Source: Draconibacterium orientale (lineage in GTDB: Bacteria; Bacteroidota; Bacteroidia; Bacteroidales; FEN-979). From it: 35,288 bases of DNA. The position numbers were made by a program, and so were the translations under genes. Positions within the stretch are counted from its first letter, which is position 1. Every line of letters starts with the position of its first letter. Of this stretch, positions 19,180-35,097 are shown in pieces. The stretch is from the NCBI GenBank assembly GCA_020718225.1, contig DYSO01000011.1:1-35288 (forward strand), in the 5' to 3' direction. A model generated the notes under the pieces. It searched no databases and had not been told where the DNA came from. It worked only from the letters and a program-made list of their open reading frames with translations.

Positions 19180-20013
19180 TTAGTGTTCAGGGCACTTTCT
19201 TTTCAACAGATCGGGCCGCTGGATGCGCCGTTTGATGCAGAGAATCTCGGAAGCGATCTCCTCAATGGGTTTATTGGTAACCTGTATGACCGGCCATTCA
19301 TACTTGTCGAAAAGGTTCTGTGCGTAATTCAGTTCCCTGCGGACATTTACCAGCGATGAATACTCAATGGTGGCCCCGCCCAGATATTGTTGACGGGCTT
19401 CCCGAAGGTTCGAAAGCTCCTGTGGCCGGGTCATCAGTCCAAAAACATTCCCCGTGGGTAGATTGGCAATGTTGTCGGGCAATTCAACCCCCATAACGAT
19501 CGGATAGTTGGCAACAAACCAACCTTTATAAGCAAGATAGATGGAGAGTGGTGTTTTGAAAGTACGGGAGACTCCGACCAGCAGGATTTCTGATTTTTCG
19601 TAATCATACGCCCGCTGGCCGTCATCATGGTTGAATGCAAACTGCATGGCATCGATCCGCTTAAAATATTCTTTGTTTAACCTGAAAAACAATCCGGGTT
19701 CGCCGGTAGGGGAATCGGCAAAATGATGGGCAAGCCTCGATAACAGCGGCCCCATCAGGTCGATGGAGTCAATGTTGTGAATCCTGCTGATCCGGAGAAT
19801 CGTATCACGAAACACCGATGAAACCAGGGTATGCACAATAAGGCCCTCTTCCCTGACGGCCTCCAGCACGATATCCTCAAGCTGTTGTTCGGTCCGAACT
19901 TCCCCCCTCAGAATGACTTCGGGGCTGATATTTGGGAACTGGGTCAGCGCCGCCATCACCGTTTGCTCAGCAGTACGGCCTGTACCATCGGACACAACAA
20001 ATATTTTTTTCAT
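19180..20013 (-). CDS. PPDK/PEP synthase regulatory kinase-phosphorylase (PDRP/PSRP family)
   Basis: KKIFVVSDGTGRTAEQTVMAAL N-terminus, SIDLMGPLL, FAFNHDDGQ, LVGVSRTFKTPLSIYLAYKGWFVANYPIVMGVELP; all PDRP family landmarks. Confidence 0.9.
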   Translation of the reverse strand: MKKIFVVSDGTGRTAEQTVMAALTQFPNISPEVILRGEVRTEQQLEDIVLEAVREEGLIVHTLVSSVFRDTILRISRIHNIDSIDLMGPLLSRLAHHFADSPTGEPGLFFRLNKEYFKRIDAMQFAFNHDDGQRAYDYEKSEILLVGVSRTFKTPLSIYLAYKGWFVANYPIVMGVELPDNIANLPTGNVFGLMTRPQELSNLREARQQYLGGATIEYSSLVNVRRELNYAQNLFDKYEWPVIQVTNKPIEEIASEILCIKRRIQRPDLLKRKCPEH

Positions 20014-20141
20014 GGGCAGGTTCATTTCATCAGGTCCCTTCCCGCAAAGTTTCATTTTTGTGAAAGGAGGGCCCAATATGTTTTAAGCCTATAAAACTAC
20101 TACATTCATAGCGTTTCTTCAAATTTAAAGTTGTTTTTTGA

Positions 20142-23883: not shown

Positions 23884-24894
23884 ATGCTAAAAAAGATCTT
23901 CGCCCGTCAGATGGTGAAACGAACCAAGGGACGCCGGTTTTCAATTCATTATCTCGAAGAAAAACATGTCGATCAATCTCAGCCCTACCCTAACGACAGC
24001 TCCTATTTTTATGGCGGTGACAAAAACGGCAACGCGTTTATCACCCGGATGGCTTTTCGTTCACCCAAAAGGGCCAACGAATACTGGTTCGACTTTTTTA
24101 TCAAAGATTACGGATTCTTCGGTTTAACAAGTTCGCCTGGGGAAGAAGGGCCTGGATTTCAACAAGGGCTTCTTCGATGGGAGCCCATTGAAACCGGCAA
24201 AATCTGGCGGATCACTTTTGAAGGGACGGTTAACGACAAGCAGGAAAAGGCCCATTATTGCAAGGTCAACATGGTTTTCACCGGCGATCACCCGGTGTAT
24301 GATTTCGCTAAGAGTTCCGATCACAGGGCCATTGCCGACGCCATTGCATCCGAGAAGTGGACCCGGGCGTTTTTTCACCACATGAAGGATACACACCAGG
24401 TCCATTATGAACAAACCGGGACCTTCAAAGGTACCATTGTTTTGGATGAGAAGACTTTCGCCTTACAGATGATGGCTTCGCGCGATCACTCATTTGGTTC
24501 ACGCAACTGGCATACATGGGACCGCCATTATTGGATTACCGGCGTTTCCGATGCGGGTGTCCACTGGACAGTAACCACCATTAAATGGCAGTTTCTGGGG
24601 CGGCTAACAGCAGGTTTTATAACCCTGGCCGATGGGTCCACCGATGCCATTGTTGATTGTACAGATCTCGATACCGTTTCCCGGGAAAAACTTCTTCCCA
24701 ACCACGGCGTTATTGAAATAAAAACCCGGAATGGAAAAACACACATCATGGAATTCTGGCGAAACGGGGAATTTCAATACCTTCACGACGGAAAGTACCG
24801 GATGCACGAAGGGATCGGGACTTATAAATTCGATGGGGTTGATGGCATTGGAATGGTTGAATTCGGCTTTCATGCCGATAAATATAAGGAGTAA
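23884..24894 (+). CDS. Uncharacterised lipocalin/tocopherol-cyclase/DUF7064-like beta-rich protein
   Basis: 336 aa; MMASRDHSFGSRNWHTWDRHYWITG resembles the RDHSFGxRDW signature of the DUF7064/AttH-like group; predicted strand-rich, no signal peptide. Family assignment from memory. Confidence 0.6.
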   Translation: MLKKIFARQMVKRTKGRRFSIHYLEEKHVDQSQPYPNDSSYFYGGDKNGNAFITRMAFRSPKRANEYWFDFFIKDYGFFGLTSSPGEEGPGFQQGLLRWEPIETGKIWRITFEGTVNDKQEKAHYCKVNMVFTGDHPVYDFAKSSDHRAIADAIASEKWTRAFFHHMKDTHQVHYEQTGTFKGTIVLDEKTFALQMMASRDHSFGSRNWHTWDRHYWITGVSDAGVHWTVTTIKWQFLGRLTAGFITLADGSTDAIVDCTDLDTVSREKLLPNHGVIEIKTRNGKTHIMEFWRNGEFQYLHDGKYRMHEGIGTYKFDGVDGIGMVEFGFHADKYKE

Positions 24895-24920
24895 GGAACT
24901 TGAACTAAGGACTGATTTTG
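24886..24920. repeat. Imperfect heptanucleotide-periodic spacer, five units
   Basis: AAGGAGT AAGGAAC TTGAACT AAGGACT GATTTTG; spans the stop codon of the 23884 gene and the TTG start of the next gene. Confidence 0.55.
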
Positions 24921-27341
24921 ATTAAGTTTATTCAGGATATACAGGACGAACCAGTTGGAGGAAAAGCGAAGGGGTTACAGATGTTGCGAAAAATCGGGCT
25001 CAATGTCCCCGATGCATTTGTTCTGATCCACCCCCGTACTGAAAATCTCGACGAAGCCCGGATTCAAAAACACCTTCACGCATTAGGGGAAGGATGCAAA
25101 GCCGTACGCTCCTCTGCCGTCAGCGAAGATGGCGCCAATGCCTCATTTGCCGGTCAATTTGAAACGTTTCTGAACCTTTGCTCTTACGGGGAGATCAAAG
25201 ATGCCATTATCAACTGTATTGAAGCCGCCAAAGCAGACCGGGTCCGCTCTTACAGCGGGAGCCTCCATTCAGAAGCCGACCTGCGGATTTCAGTGATCCT
25301 TCAGAATATGGTCGATGCCCGGATAGCCGGCGTCGTCTTTTCAATAAACCCGGTCAATAACCGGCGCGATACCATGATCATCAATGCCATTGCAGGACAT
25401 GGTGAAGAACTGGTGAGCGGAAAGAAAGACGCTGTGCATTACGAAATTTTAAGAAGCGGTAAAAATATTGACCTCATCACAAACCGCCTGTCACCAGCGG
25501 AAAAGAAAGATCCTTCAGCCGATAACCCGCTGTTGACAAAAAATCAGCTTATCGAAATCATGAAGGGGGCCAAATTAGCTGAATCGCATCATGGTATGCC
25601 GGTCGACCTCGAATGGGCCATCGATCAACAGGGTACATTGCACTGGCTTCAGGTACGGCCAATCACCACACTACAGGAGGTCCATTATAATGAACTTGAT
25701 TCTGTGAAGGAGGAAAGCAGCGATGTCTGGACTCTTGGGAACATCGGTGAGATGATGCCGGGTGTTGCCACCCCCCTTACCTGGTCGGTCAGCGCCGAAG
25801 CCATCGATTATGGAATGACCGTCCTTGCAAATCAAGTTGGCGCCTTCAAACTTAAAGACAGGACTTCTCCACGGTATATTCAGATGTTTTACAACCGGTT
25901 GTTCATAAATATGAGCAACATGATGGATTATCCGAAACACATCTGGTTAAACAAAGCAGATGATGTACAATTTGCATTAAGCGGAAAAGTTTTCCCCGGG
26001 ATTGCTGCGCAACCTGAAAGCGGGTTACCACGACGCATCTTTAATTTTTACCGGCAAATAGCCATTACTTTTCTTGCAAAAAAACACCTTGCAGCGCTTA
26101 AGAAACTGGAATCAACTTTCACTGTTGAAGCCTCCGGAAACCTGGTGAAAATACATGAGAATTTAGGAAAAGCCCGATATCAACTGGGTGTCGGATTTGG
26201 TCACCACCTGATGACCTCCGCTCAGTCGGGCACTCTTTATTCTGCATTTATGCGGATCATGGCCGGCAATAAACAGACTCCTTCTGCCGGCGATCACCAT
26301 ATTGCTACCATCCTGTTGCTCAACATCCCTGAAATTGAAAGCGCCGATGCCGTGAAATCCCTGGAACGGTTTGCAAACCTGATAAAACATGACGTGATGT
26401 TTGCTTCACGGTTTCTGACAGCCACTCCAGACGAGGCGCTGGCATTGTTGGAAAACGATGCCCCTTCGGAAATTTCAAGGCAATTTCGGGATTTTATTTC
26501 ACGCCATGGCCACCGTTGTGTAAGAGAATCAGAACTTCGGGAAAAAACATGGGAAGAACGCCCGCAGCTTCTTATCAAATCGCTTCAGACACGGATCAAA
26601 TTCAACGACAACAGGCCTGTCCAGCAAAATGTTTCCGCTTTAATACAGGAAGCCACAAAAAATCTTCCGCTTTTTAAACGGAACCTGCTCCGGATGCTGG
26701 TACCCTTAGCCCGCAGAGCAGTGGCCCGAAGGGAGATTACCAAAGCCGATGTGATCAGGATGGTCAGTAAGGTCAGAAAAGGATACCGGGAACTTGCCCT
26801 CCGGTTGACACAGGATGGATTGCTGGATGATCCCGACCAAATCTATTTTTTAACCCATGAAGAGATCGGCCTTTTAATCCATGACCATAACCCTCAATGG
26901 AAAGTAAAAGCCGGAAAACGCAGGGATATCTTCCCTGAACTGGATAAACTGGTTTTTGATGAGGTGAGCTTCGGAATCCCTGAACCCATGGAACAGGAGC
27001 ACGATATCGATGTCAGGGAAGGACAGTTGCAGGGAATACCTGTCAGCAGTGGCATCGTCGAAGGCCGGGCACGCATCATCCACACCCTTGCAGACGCTGA
27101 AAAACTGATGGAAGGCGAAATCATGATTGCCTCTTTTACCGATATCGGATGGACCCCTTACTTCAGTATTATTTCAGGACTGATTACCGAAATTGGAAGC
27201 CCTCTCTCCCATGGCGCTGTTGTTGCCCGTGAATACAGAATTCCTGCCATTGTAAGCGTTAAAGGGGCCAGACGGTTTTTTAAAGACGGCGACCTGGTGC
27301 ACCTGGATGGAAACAGGGGAATTGTAGAGAAGGTGGGTTAA
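24918..27341 (+). CDS. PEP-utilising enzyme of rifampicin-phosphotransferase-like architecture (N-terminal PPDK ATP-grasp, helical middle, C-terminal swivelling His domain)
   Basis: N-terminal GGKAKGLQMLRKIGLNVPDAFVL...VRSSAVSEDGANASFAGQFETFLN...VDLEWAIDQQGTLHWLQVRPITT; C-terminal ISGLITEIGSPLSHGAVVAREYRIPAIVSVKGA mobile His domain; no C-terminal PEP/pyruvate TIM barrel. TTG start. Confidence 0.85.
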   Translation: MIKFIQDIQDEPVGGKAKGLQMLRKIGLNVPDAFVLIHPRTENLDEARIQKHLHALGEGCKAVRSSAVSEDGANASFAGQFETFLNLCSYGEIKDAIINCIEAAKADRVRSYSGSLHSEADLRISVILQNMVDARIAGVVFSINPVNNRRDTMIINAIAGHGEELVSGKKDAVHYEILRSGKNIDLITNRLSPAEKKDPSADNPLLTKNQLIEIMKGAKLAESHHGMPVDLEWAIDQQGTLHWLQVRPITTLQEVHYNELDSVKEESSDVWTLGNIGEMMPGVATPLTWSVSAEAIDYGMTVLANQVGAFKLKDRTSPRYIQMFYNRLFINMSNMMDYPKHIWLNKADDVQFALSGKVFPGIAAQPESGLPRRIFNFYRQIAITFLAKKHLAALKKLESTFTVEASGNLVKIHENLGKARYQLGVGFGHHLMTSAQSGTLYSAFMRIMAGNKQTPSAGDHHIATILLLNIPEIESADAVKSLERFANLIKHDVMFASRFLTATPDEALALLENDAPSEISRQFRDFISRHGHRCVRESELREKTWEERPQLLIKSLQTRIKFNDNRPVQQNVSALIQEATKNLPLFKRNLLRMLVPLARRAVARREITKADVIRMVSKVRKGYRELALRLTQDGLLDDPDQIYFLTHEEIGLLIHDHNPQWKVKAGKRRDIFPELDKLVFDEVSFGIPEPMEQEHDIDVREGQLQGIPVSSGIVEGRARIIHTLADAEKLMEGEIMIASFTDIGWTPYFSIISGLITEIGSPLSHGAVVAREYRIPAIVSVKGARRFFKDGDLVHLDGNRGIVEKVG

Positions 27342-34650: not shown

Positions 34651-35097
34651 ATGAGCTGGGTGAGAATTTGGGTACATCTGGTTTTCTCCACAAAAAATCG
34701 GGAACCATTCCTCCATTCTTCAGAATTAAGAAAACAATTCTTTCAGCATATCAAACAAAATGCAGAAGAAAAACAAATATGGCTTGATTGTATCAGCGGA
34801 TATGCGGAACATGCCCATTGCCTGATTTCCCTTGGCAAAGATCAATCATTAAGTAAGGTAGCCCAGCTTATAAAAGGAGAATCATCGTTTTGGATCAATA
34901 AAAATGGGATGATCAGGAATAAATTTATCTGGCAGGACGATTATTGGGCCGTAAGTGTGAGTGAAAGTCACTTGGACAATGTGCGACAGTATATTCACAG
35001 CCAGGAAAAACATCACAGGAACATACCTTTTTCGGGAGAAGTAGCAGAGTTTATGGAAAGATATGGGTGGACATTCGTTCATGGTTCAACAGATTAA
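34651..35097 (+). mobile_element. REP-associated tyrosine transposase (RAYT; IS200/IS605-like Y1 transposase, PF01797-type)
   Basis: 148 aa; MSWVRIWVHLVFSTKNREP N-terminus, HUH-type GYAEHAHCLISL, catalytic-Tyr region LDNVRQYIHSQEKHHR; flanked on both sides by REP-like repeats. Confidence 0.9.

Follow-up and report, generated by a model that had tools for sequence, protein, structure and literature searches.

Known two-step dehydration systems and the Draconibacterium gene pair

Two settings are known in which alcohols are dehydrated at the expense of ATP: one sterol pathway and the repair of NAD(P)H hydrates (PMC8449060). In Sterolibacterium denitrificans, a kinase (25-HSK) phosphorylates a tertiary 25-hydroxysteroid, and 25-phosphosteroid lyase (25-PSL) then eliminates the phosphate to leave an alkene, at the cost of ATP (PMC7411048, PMC8449060; PDB 9fzn, 9g2i, 9g4c). 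The phosphoryl potential of the tertiary steroid phosphoester slightly exceeds that of the ATP beta-gamma bond (PMC8449060). Because this phosphoester is as energy-rich as ATP, the kinase step lies near equilibrium. Here we describe a pair of genes, one for a protein with a DUF7064 domain and one for a dikinase of the rifampicin-phosphotransferase type, in a 35,288-nt stretch of Draconibacterium orientale DNA (GCA_020718225.1, contig DYSO01000011.1, positions 1-35,288, forward strand; hereafter the window). On balance, our analysis suggests that the pair is probably a two-step ATP-dependent dehydratase, in which the dikinase would phosphorylate a hydrophobic alcohol and the DUF7064 protein would eliminate the phosphate to give an alkene.

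Similar logic is found in ACAD10/ACAD11 and in LvaA/LvaC, in which a kinase and a phosphate-eliminating enzyme act on 4-hydroxyacyl-CoA, the hydroxyl being phosphorylated and the phosphate then eliminated. Unlike in the window, the kinase is of the APH type, and the eliminating enzyme is an acyl-CoA dehydrogenase rather than a double beta-barrel. Two further systems each resemble one half of the pair. The dikinase RPH-Lm takes phosphate from ATP and passes it on with the help of Lys22, Arg117, Arg666-Glu667-Lys670 and His825 (PMC4844700). In Mycobacterium tuberculosis, the kinase gene Rv3168 and the DUF7064-related gene Rv3169 form one operon under the TetR-type repressor Rv3167c (PMC5340868).

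The features of the window pair are as follows.

23884..24894, + strand: gene of the DUF7064 protein (double beta-barrel of the DUF7065-DUF7064 type), 336 aa, ATG start, PF23212 at 38.2 bits; proposed phospho-alcohol (C-O) lyase
24481..24510, + strand: codons of RDHSFGSRNW, residues 200-209, with the proposed catalytic Asp201 and Arg207 (from invariance and the alignment with 25-PSL)
24918..27341, + strand: gene of the rifampicin-phosphotransferase-type dikinase, 807 aa, TTG start, PPDK_N and PEP-utilizers domains; proposed alcohol kinase of the pair
26730..26744, + strand: codons of R605-E606-I-T-K609, by alignment Arg666-Glu667-Lys670 of RPH-Lm, acceptor site
27210..27212, + strand: codon of His765, by alignment the phosphorylated His825 of RPH-Lm

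An earlier note, made from the DNA letters, had proposed these two reading frames as a unit; both are present and are separated by 23 bp. The two segments to which it drew attention, RDHSFGSRNW in the DUF7064 protein and SPLSHGAVVAREYRIPAIV in the C-terminal His domain of the dikinase, were also found.

The likeness to the Sterolibacterium tandem lies mainly in the lyase, which is homologous to the DUF7064 protein by both profile and fold and has the same Asp in an R-D-x-S-x-G-x-R motif. The logic of a kinase plus a partner is also shared. However, 25-HSK is a 40-kDa kinase of the phosphotransferase family that forms ADP, whereas the window kinase is a phosphohistidine dikinase with an unrelated fold. 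In addition, the 2021 paper did not find a candidate for the lyase in the vicinity of the Sterolibacterium kinase gene, whereas the window genes are adjacent. Given that the kinase differs, the pair would work like the 25-HSK/25-PSL tandem without being a member of it.

Conservation of the gene pair

The DUF7064 and dikinase genes are a real unit, associated far beyond chance. Relatives were scanned with each species represented by a single genome, which yielded 28 loci (L002-L029), and in 28/28 the two genes are adjacent and in the same order, while the flanking genes vary. Identity to the window proteins across these loci is 68-82% for DUF7064 and 55-69% for the dikinase. The dikinase therefore diverges faster than its partner over the same species. 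The intergenic gap, taken over 31 loci, ranges from -4 to 162 bp (median 32), with a 4-bp overlap in four of them. One of the loci, L026, is labelled as an alphaproteobacterial metagenome-assembled genome; its gene order and identity values equal those of the Bacteroidales locus L013, and the label looks wrong.

Farther away, the pairing is rarer but equally consistent. A family profile detected the DUF7064 gene in 4 of 198 genomes of the order, and the dikinase clade, whose members score above 585 bits while the next sequence scores 155, occurs in the same 4. Two of these 4 are distant from the window genome: their proteins are 26-30% (DUF7064) and 35% (dikinase) identical to those of the window, and the genes are adjacent within unrelated neighbourhoods. 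A second genome from each of these two distant genera lacks both genes, which suggests that the two are gained and lost together. At the level of the class, 7 of 395 genomes have the DUF7064 gene and the same 7 have the dikinase gene; six of these belong to one genus of another family, where the genes also stand side by side. Within the family of Draconibacterium (43 genomes), each gene is present in 34, the two are shared by 33, and they are adjacent in all 33. The collections share genomes and kin genomes are not independent, so these counts are not to be multiplied. Five other genomes of the phylum had marginal Pfam matches to DUF7064, of which a better profile found one weakly and the rest not at all. 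No gene that fuses DUF7064 to the dikinase was found among the bacteria searched, and a look through the literature for the fused animal proteins that the earlier note had mentioned gave no useful hit. The earlier note had counted a lack of adjacency in related genomes, together with a lack of fusions, against its proposal; adjacency is what both the close relatives and the distant pairs exhibit.

Two genomes are exceptions. In G624, the dikinase gene is cut by the end of a contig. In G615, by contrast, the dikinase is cleanly absent: the stop codon of the DUF7064 gene is followed by 24 bp and then by the antiporter gene that follows the dikinase in the window. The orphan DUF7064 copy (L107:2-625, G615:C14) reads RRGHSFGSLNW in place of the (S)RDHSFGSRxW found elsewhere, and so lacks both the Asp of the motif and its second Arg. 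Loss of the kinase together with decay of the motif is expected if the two proteins are mutually dependent and the motif is catalytic, and G615 is a single case of such natural loss. Together with the conserved adjacency and the identical presence sets, it supports the previous suggestion that the two products act together.

The DUF7064 protein is related to 25-phosphosteroid lyase

Within the window protein, the Pfam match to DUF7064 (PF23212) spans residues 209-329 and exceeds the gathering cutoff of 24.7 bits; DUF7065, which is N-terminal to it, is below its own cutoff (18 vs 27). An AlphaFold model built from 18 sequences is of high confidence (pLDDT 87.7, pTM 0.87) and nearly all beta. 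When this model was compared with 350,542 PDB chains using Foldseek, ranks 1-4 were all 25-PSL (E 8e-12, TM 0.62), and the next matches were AttH NE1406, fungal Diels-Alderases (Phm7, Fsa2, CghA) and kievitone hydratase. When PDB sequences were searched with a profile built from 14 diverse members of the DUF7064 family, 25-PSL was the sole significant solved structure (E 1.1e-10). Single DUF7064 proteins, searched against the PDB with phmmer, found no relative; the link to 25-PSL emerged only from the fold comparison and the mixed-family profile.

The aligned region ends in a shared motif, which is SRDHSFGSR in the window protein and SRDRSWGVR in 25-PSL. D201, S203, G205 and R207 of this motif are invariant in 14/14 diverse DUF7064 proteins. 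The 25-PSL entry 9g4c, a complex with phosphate and the product desmost-1,4-diene-3-one, has Asn where the motif Asp stands. We read this Asn as an inactive mutant made for trapping the complex, which is our own reading of the entry and does not come from a paper. On this reading, the Asp equivalent to D201 would be catalytic. The earlier guess of a beta-barrel that binds a hydrophobic ligand is supported as regards the ligand and can be made more precise: the protein is probably no passive binder but a phosphate-eliminating lyase related to 25-PSL.

Alternatively, the DUF7064 protein might do no chemistry of its own and serve as a lipocalin-like binder or carrier that presents the alcohol to the dikinase or protects its product, so that the phosphoester would be the end product. 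A two-barrel fold, in which the model leads us to expect a hydrophobic pocket, would suit a binder, as would the constant position of DUF7064 beside kinases of two unrelated folds. There is also a precedent in levulinate catabolism, where the kinase LvaA needs a small partner protein. However, a binder would not be expected to have an invariant, charged RD-S-G-R motif whose Asp corresponds to the one replaced in the product complex of 25-PSL, nor to lose this Asp and the Arg once its kinase is gone, as in G615. We therefore consider a pure binder unlikely, although it is the alternative that survives best.

It is less probable still, and in our view doubtful, that the protein is a hydratase or cyclase that acts on the product of the dikinase or supplies its alcohol. 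This idea draws on AttH, kievitone hydratase, Phm7, Fsa2 and CghA as the next fold matches. Nevertheless, 25-PSL is the best match by fold and the only one by sequence profile, and the constant presence of a kinase next door would be hard to account for with a hydratase or pericyclase, neither of which obviously requires one.

The dikinase resembles rifampicin phosphotransferase but forms its own clade

The dikinase consists of an ATP-grasp domain (PPDK_N, residues 60-256), a helical acceptor-binding middle and a C-terminal swivelling His domain (PEP-utilizers, residues 732-801). No PEP/pyruvate-binding TIM-barrel domain was detected with Pfam at E values up to 1. This is the order of rifampicin phosphotransferases (ATP-grasp, helical acceptor domain, C-terminal phosphohistidine swivel) and not that of PEP synthase, as had been predicted, and the best PDB matches by both sequence and fold are RPH-Lm. 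In an alignment with Streptomyces rph and RPH-Lm, the RPH-Lm residues listed above are all kept, as K16, R64, R605-E606-K609 and H765; R605, E606, K609 and H765 are invariant among the dikinases aligned. The earlier idea that the enzyme phosphorylates a small molecule is supported.

Other properties set the dikinase apart from RPH-Lm. Its acceptor domain has diverged and does not align to that of RPH-Lm in the phmmer match, and it has DUF7064 as a constant partner. When placed in a tree together with Streptomyces rph and further relatives, the dikinases linked to DUF7064 grouped as a single clade (support 99/95), separate from rph, and no adjacent DUF7064 gene was found at any other dikinase in the tree that was examined.

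The RedH and PigC models score 280 and 268 bits on the dikinase, as high as rph. The enzyme could accordingly be imagined as a ligase that, like PigC and RedH, joins two molecules via a phosphorylated intermediate, with DUF7064 binding one of them. We regard this as very unlikely: the scores are far under the cutoffs of 1300-1350, no biosynthetic gene cluster surrounds the pair, and the relation to 25-PSL would be left unexplained.

Antibiotic resistance through phosphorylation of rifampicin, one of the activities suggested in the earlier note, was tested and rejected, and we give it hardly any credence. Although RPH-Lm is the nearest solved relative, the scores to the rph family models are far under their cutoffs, at 266 and 196 bits where 999 (NF041857) and 1700 (NF000283) would be needed. 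The rph HQQM element, which contributes the contact to rifampicin phosphate (Gln336/Gln337), reads IGEM in the dikinase. The unaligned acceptor domain, the separate clade and the lack of a DUF7064 partner gene at the rph locus examined also argue against this activity.

An ordinary PEP synthase or pyruvate phosphate dikinase, the annotation that relatives carry and one that a nearby kinase-PPPase gene might suggest, was likewise tested and rejected as next to impossible, because the pyruvate-binding TIM barrel is missing, the His domain is C-terminal and not central, and the score is 187 bits against a cutoff of 740 (TIGR01418). The kinase-PPPase gene (PF03618) is at 19180-20076 of the window, 3.8 kb upstream of the pair, and is syntenic in several relatives. 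Kinase-PPPases of this family regulate PEP synthase and pyruvate phosphate dikinase by modifying a Thr two residues before the active His. At that position the window dikinase has Leu, not Thr, so the regulator probably serves another dikinase.

Proposed reaction

In the reaction that we favor, dehydration in two steps, the dikinase would load the beta-phosphate of ATP onto His765, giving AMP and Pi. The swivel domain with phospho-His765 would then swing to the enzyme's own helical acceptor domain, where the phosphate would be passed to the hydroxyl of a hydrophobic alcohol that is probably isoprenoid-like and probably tertiary. The DUF7064 protein would take the phosphoester into its double beta-barrel and use Asp201 of the RDHSFGSR motif to eliminate the phosphate, leaving an alkene. 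Since the AMP and Pi route spends two phosphoanhydride bonds, it would pull the phosphorylation forward.

Several observations weigh against this proposal. The TM-score of the DUF7064 protein to 25-PSL is just 0.62 and the two are only about 14% identical, and the fold superfamily also contains hydratases, Diels-Alderases and AttH, whose function is unknown. For the dikinase, AlphaFold gave a poor model (pLDDT 66), which does not allow the pocket to be analysed. The neighbourhood in the window consists of housekeeping genes and points to no substrate; a comparison of gene order over 30 loci found flanks that are housekeeping or variable, and named no pathway. Finally, the host has no match to squalene/phytoene synthase, so no carotenoid or hopanoid of its own explains the pair. 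Given the housekeeping surroundings, the single copy and the wide retention in the family, a role in biosynthesis, repair or lipid remodelling is as plausible as one in catabolism.

DUF7064-type genes beside APH kinases

Genes of the DUF7064/DUF7065 type directly abut a gene for an APH-family kinase on plasmids of Sphingomonas, Novosphingobium (two places), Sphingopyxis, Mycobacterium branderi (two places) and M. paragordonae, often amid genes for P450, alcohol dehydrogenase, enoyl-CoA hydratase or alkane monooxygenase. Of the two M. branderi proteins, the second matches the family only weakly, and on one Rhodococcus plasmid the two genes are near each other but not adjacent. In the PDB, two of the plasmid APH kinases match ACAD11, 3ats (which we take to be Rv3168) and other APH-like entries. 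The pairing with APH kinases is based on these plasmid records and on the literature on Rv3168-Rv3169. The mycobacterial operon, like the window pair, combines a kinase gene with a DUF7064-related gene, but its kinase has an APH fold, and the DUF7064 protein of the window reaches just 25.7 bits with the Rv3169 family model (NF053593), whose cutoff is 150. Because kinases of two folds share one constant partner, the DUF7064 partner is expected to work on what the kinases make.

We tentatively extend this idea, with slightly less than even confidence, to DUF7064/DUF7065 in general. These domains may constitute a broad family of phosphate-eliminating lyases in phosphorylate-then-eliminate modules with interchangeable kinases. 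The kinase would be of the APH type in Actinobacteria, including Rv3168-Rv3169, and in sphingomonads, and a phosphohistidine dikinase in Bacteroidia. The AMP and Pi chemistry of the latter might pay for a very high-energy tertiary phosphoester, which an ATP-to-ADP kinase makes only near equilibrium. If this is true, pairing the lyase with a dikinase would be a new way round the known thermodynamic problem of the tertiary phosphoester.

Neither DUF7064 nor DUF7065 has been assigned a function, and we found no paper naming DUF7064 in the literature searched. The relation to 25-PSL and the link to two kinase folds give them a testable function, which probably also covers Rv3169 of M. tuberculosis. 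They also suggest that ATP-driven dehydration of alcohols is much wider than the examples known.

Some of the plasmids have additional genes of possible relevance. On two sphingomonad plasmids (L046:7608-12501, L049:6938-12394), two DUF7064 genes and an APH kinase gene occur together with a tyrosine-phosphatase-like gene (Y_phosphatase3), whose product might rescue dead-end phosphoesters. The M. branderi plasmid (L047:15759-34041) has its two pairs of APH and DUF7065-type genes along with several P450 genes, and an RPH-like dikinase of 918 aa is encoded about 1.6 kb from the second pair.

Genomic surroundings

In the window, the pair is flanked upstream by a DEAD-box helicase gene and downstream, on the opposite strand, by genes for a Na+/H+ antiporter and a deaminase. 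A search of the window for tRNAs and Rfam families found none, and a scan for promoters and terminators gave results at chance level. In a genome of the second lineage, a gene that by eye is phytoene-desaturase-like (L122:657-2150) lies about 5 kb from the pair, which is too loose to call linked. Close to the end of the window, at 34651-35097, there is an IS200-like (Y1) transposase gene.

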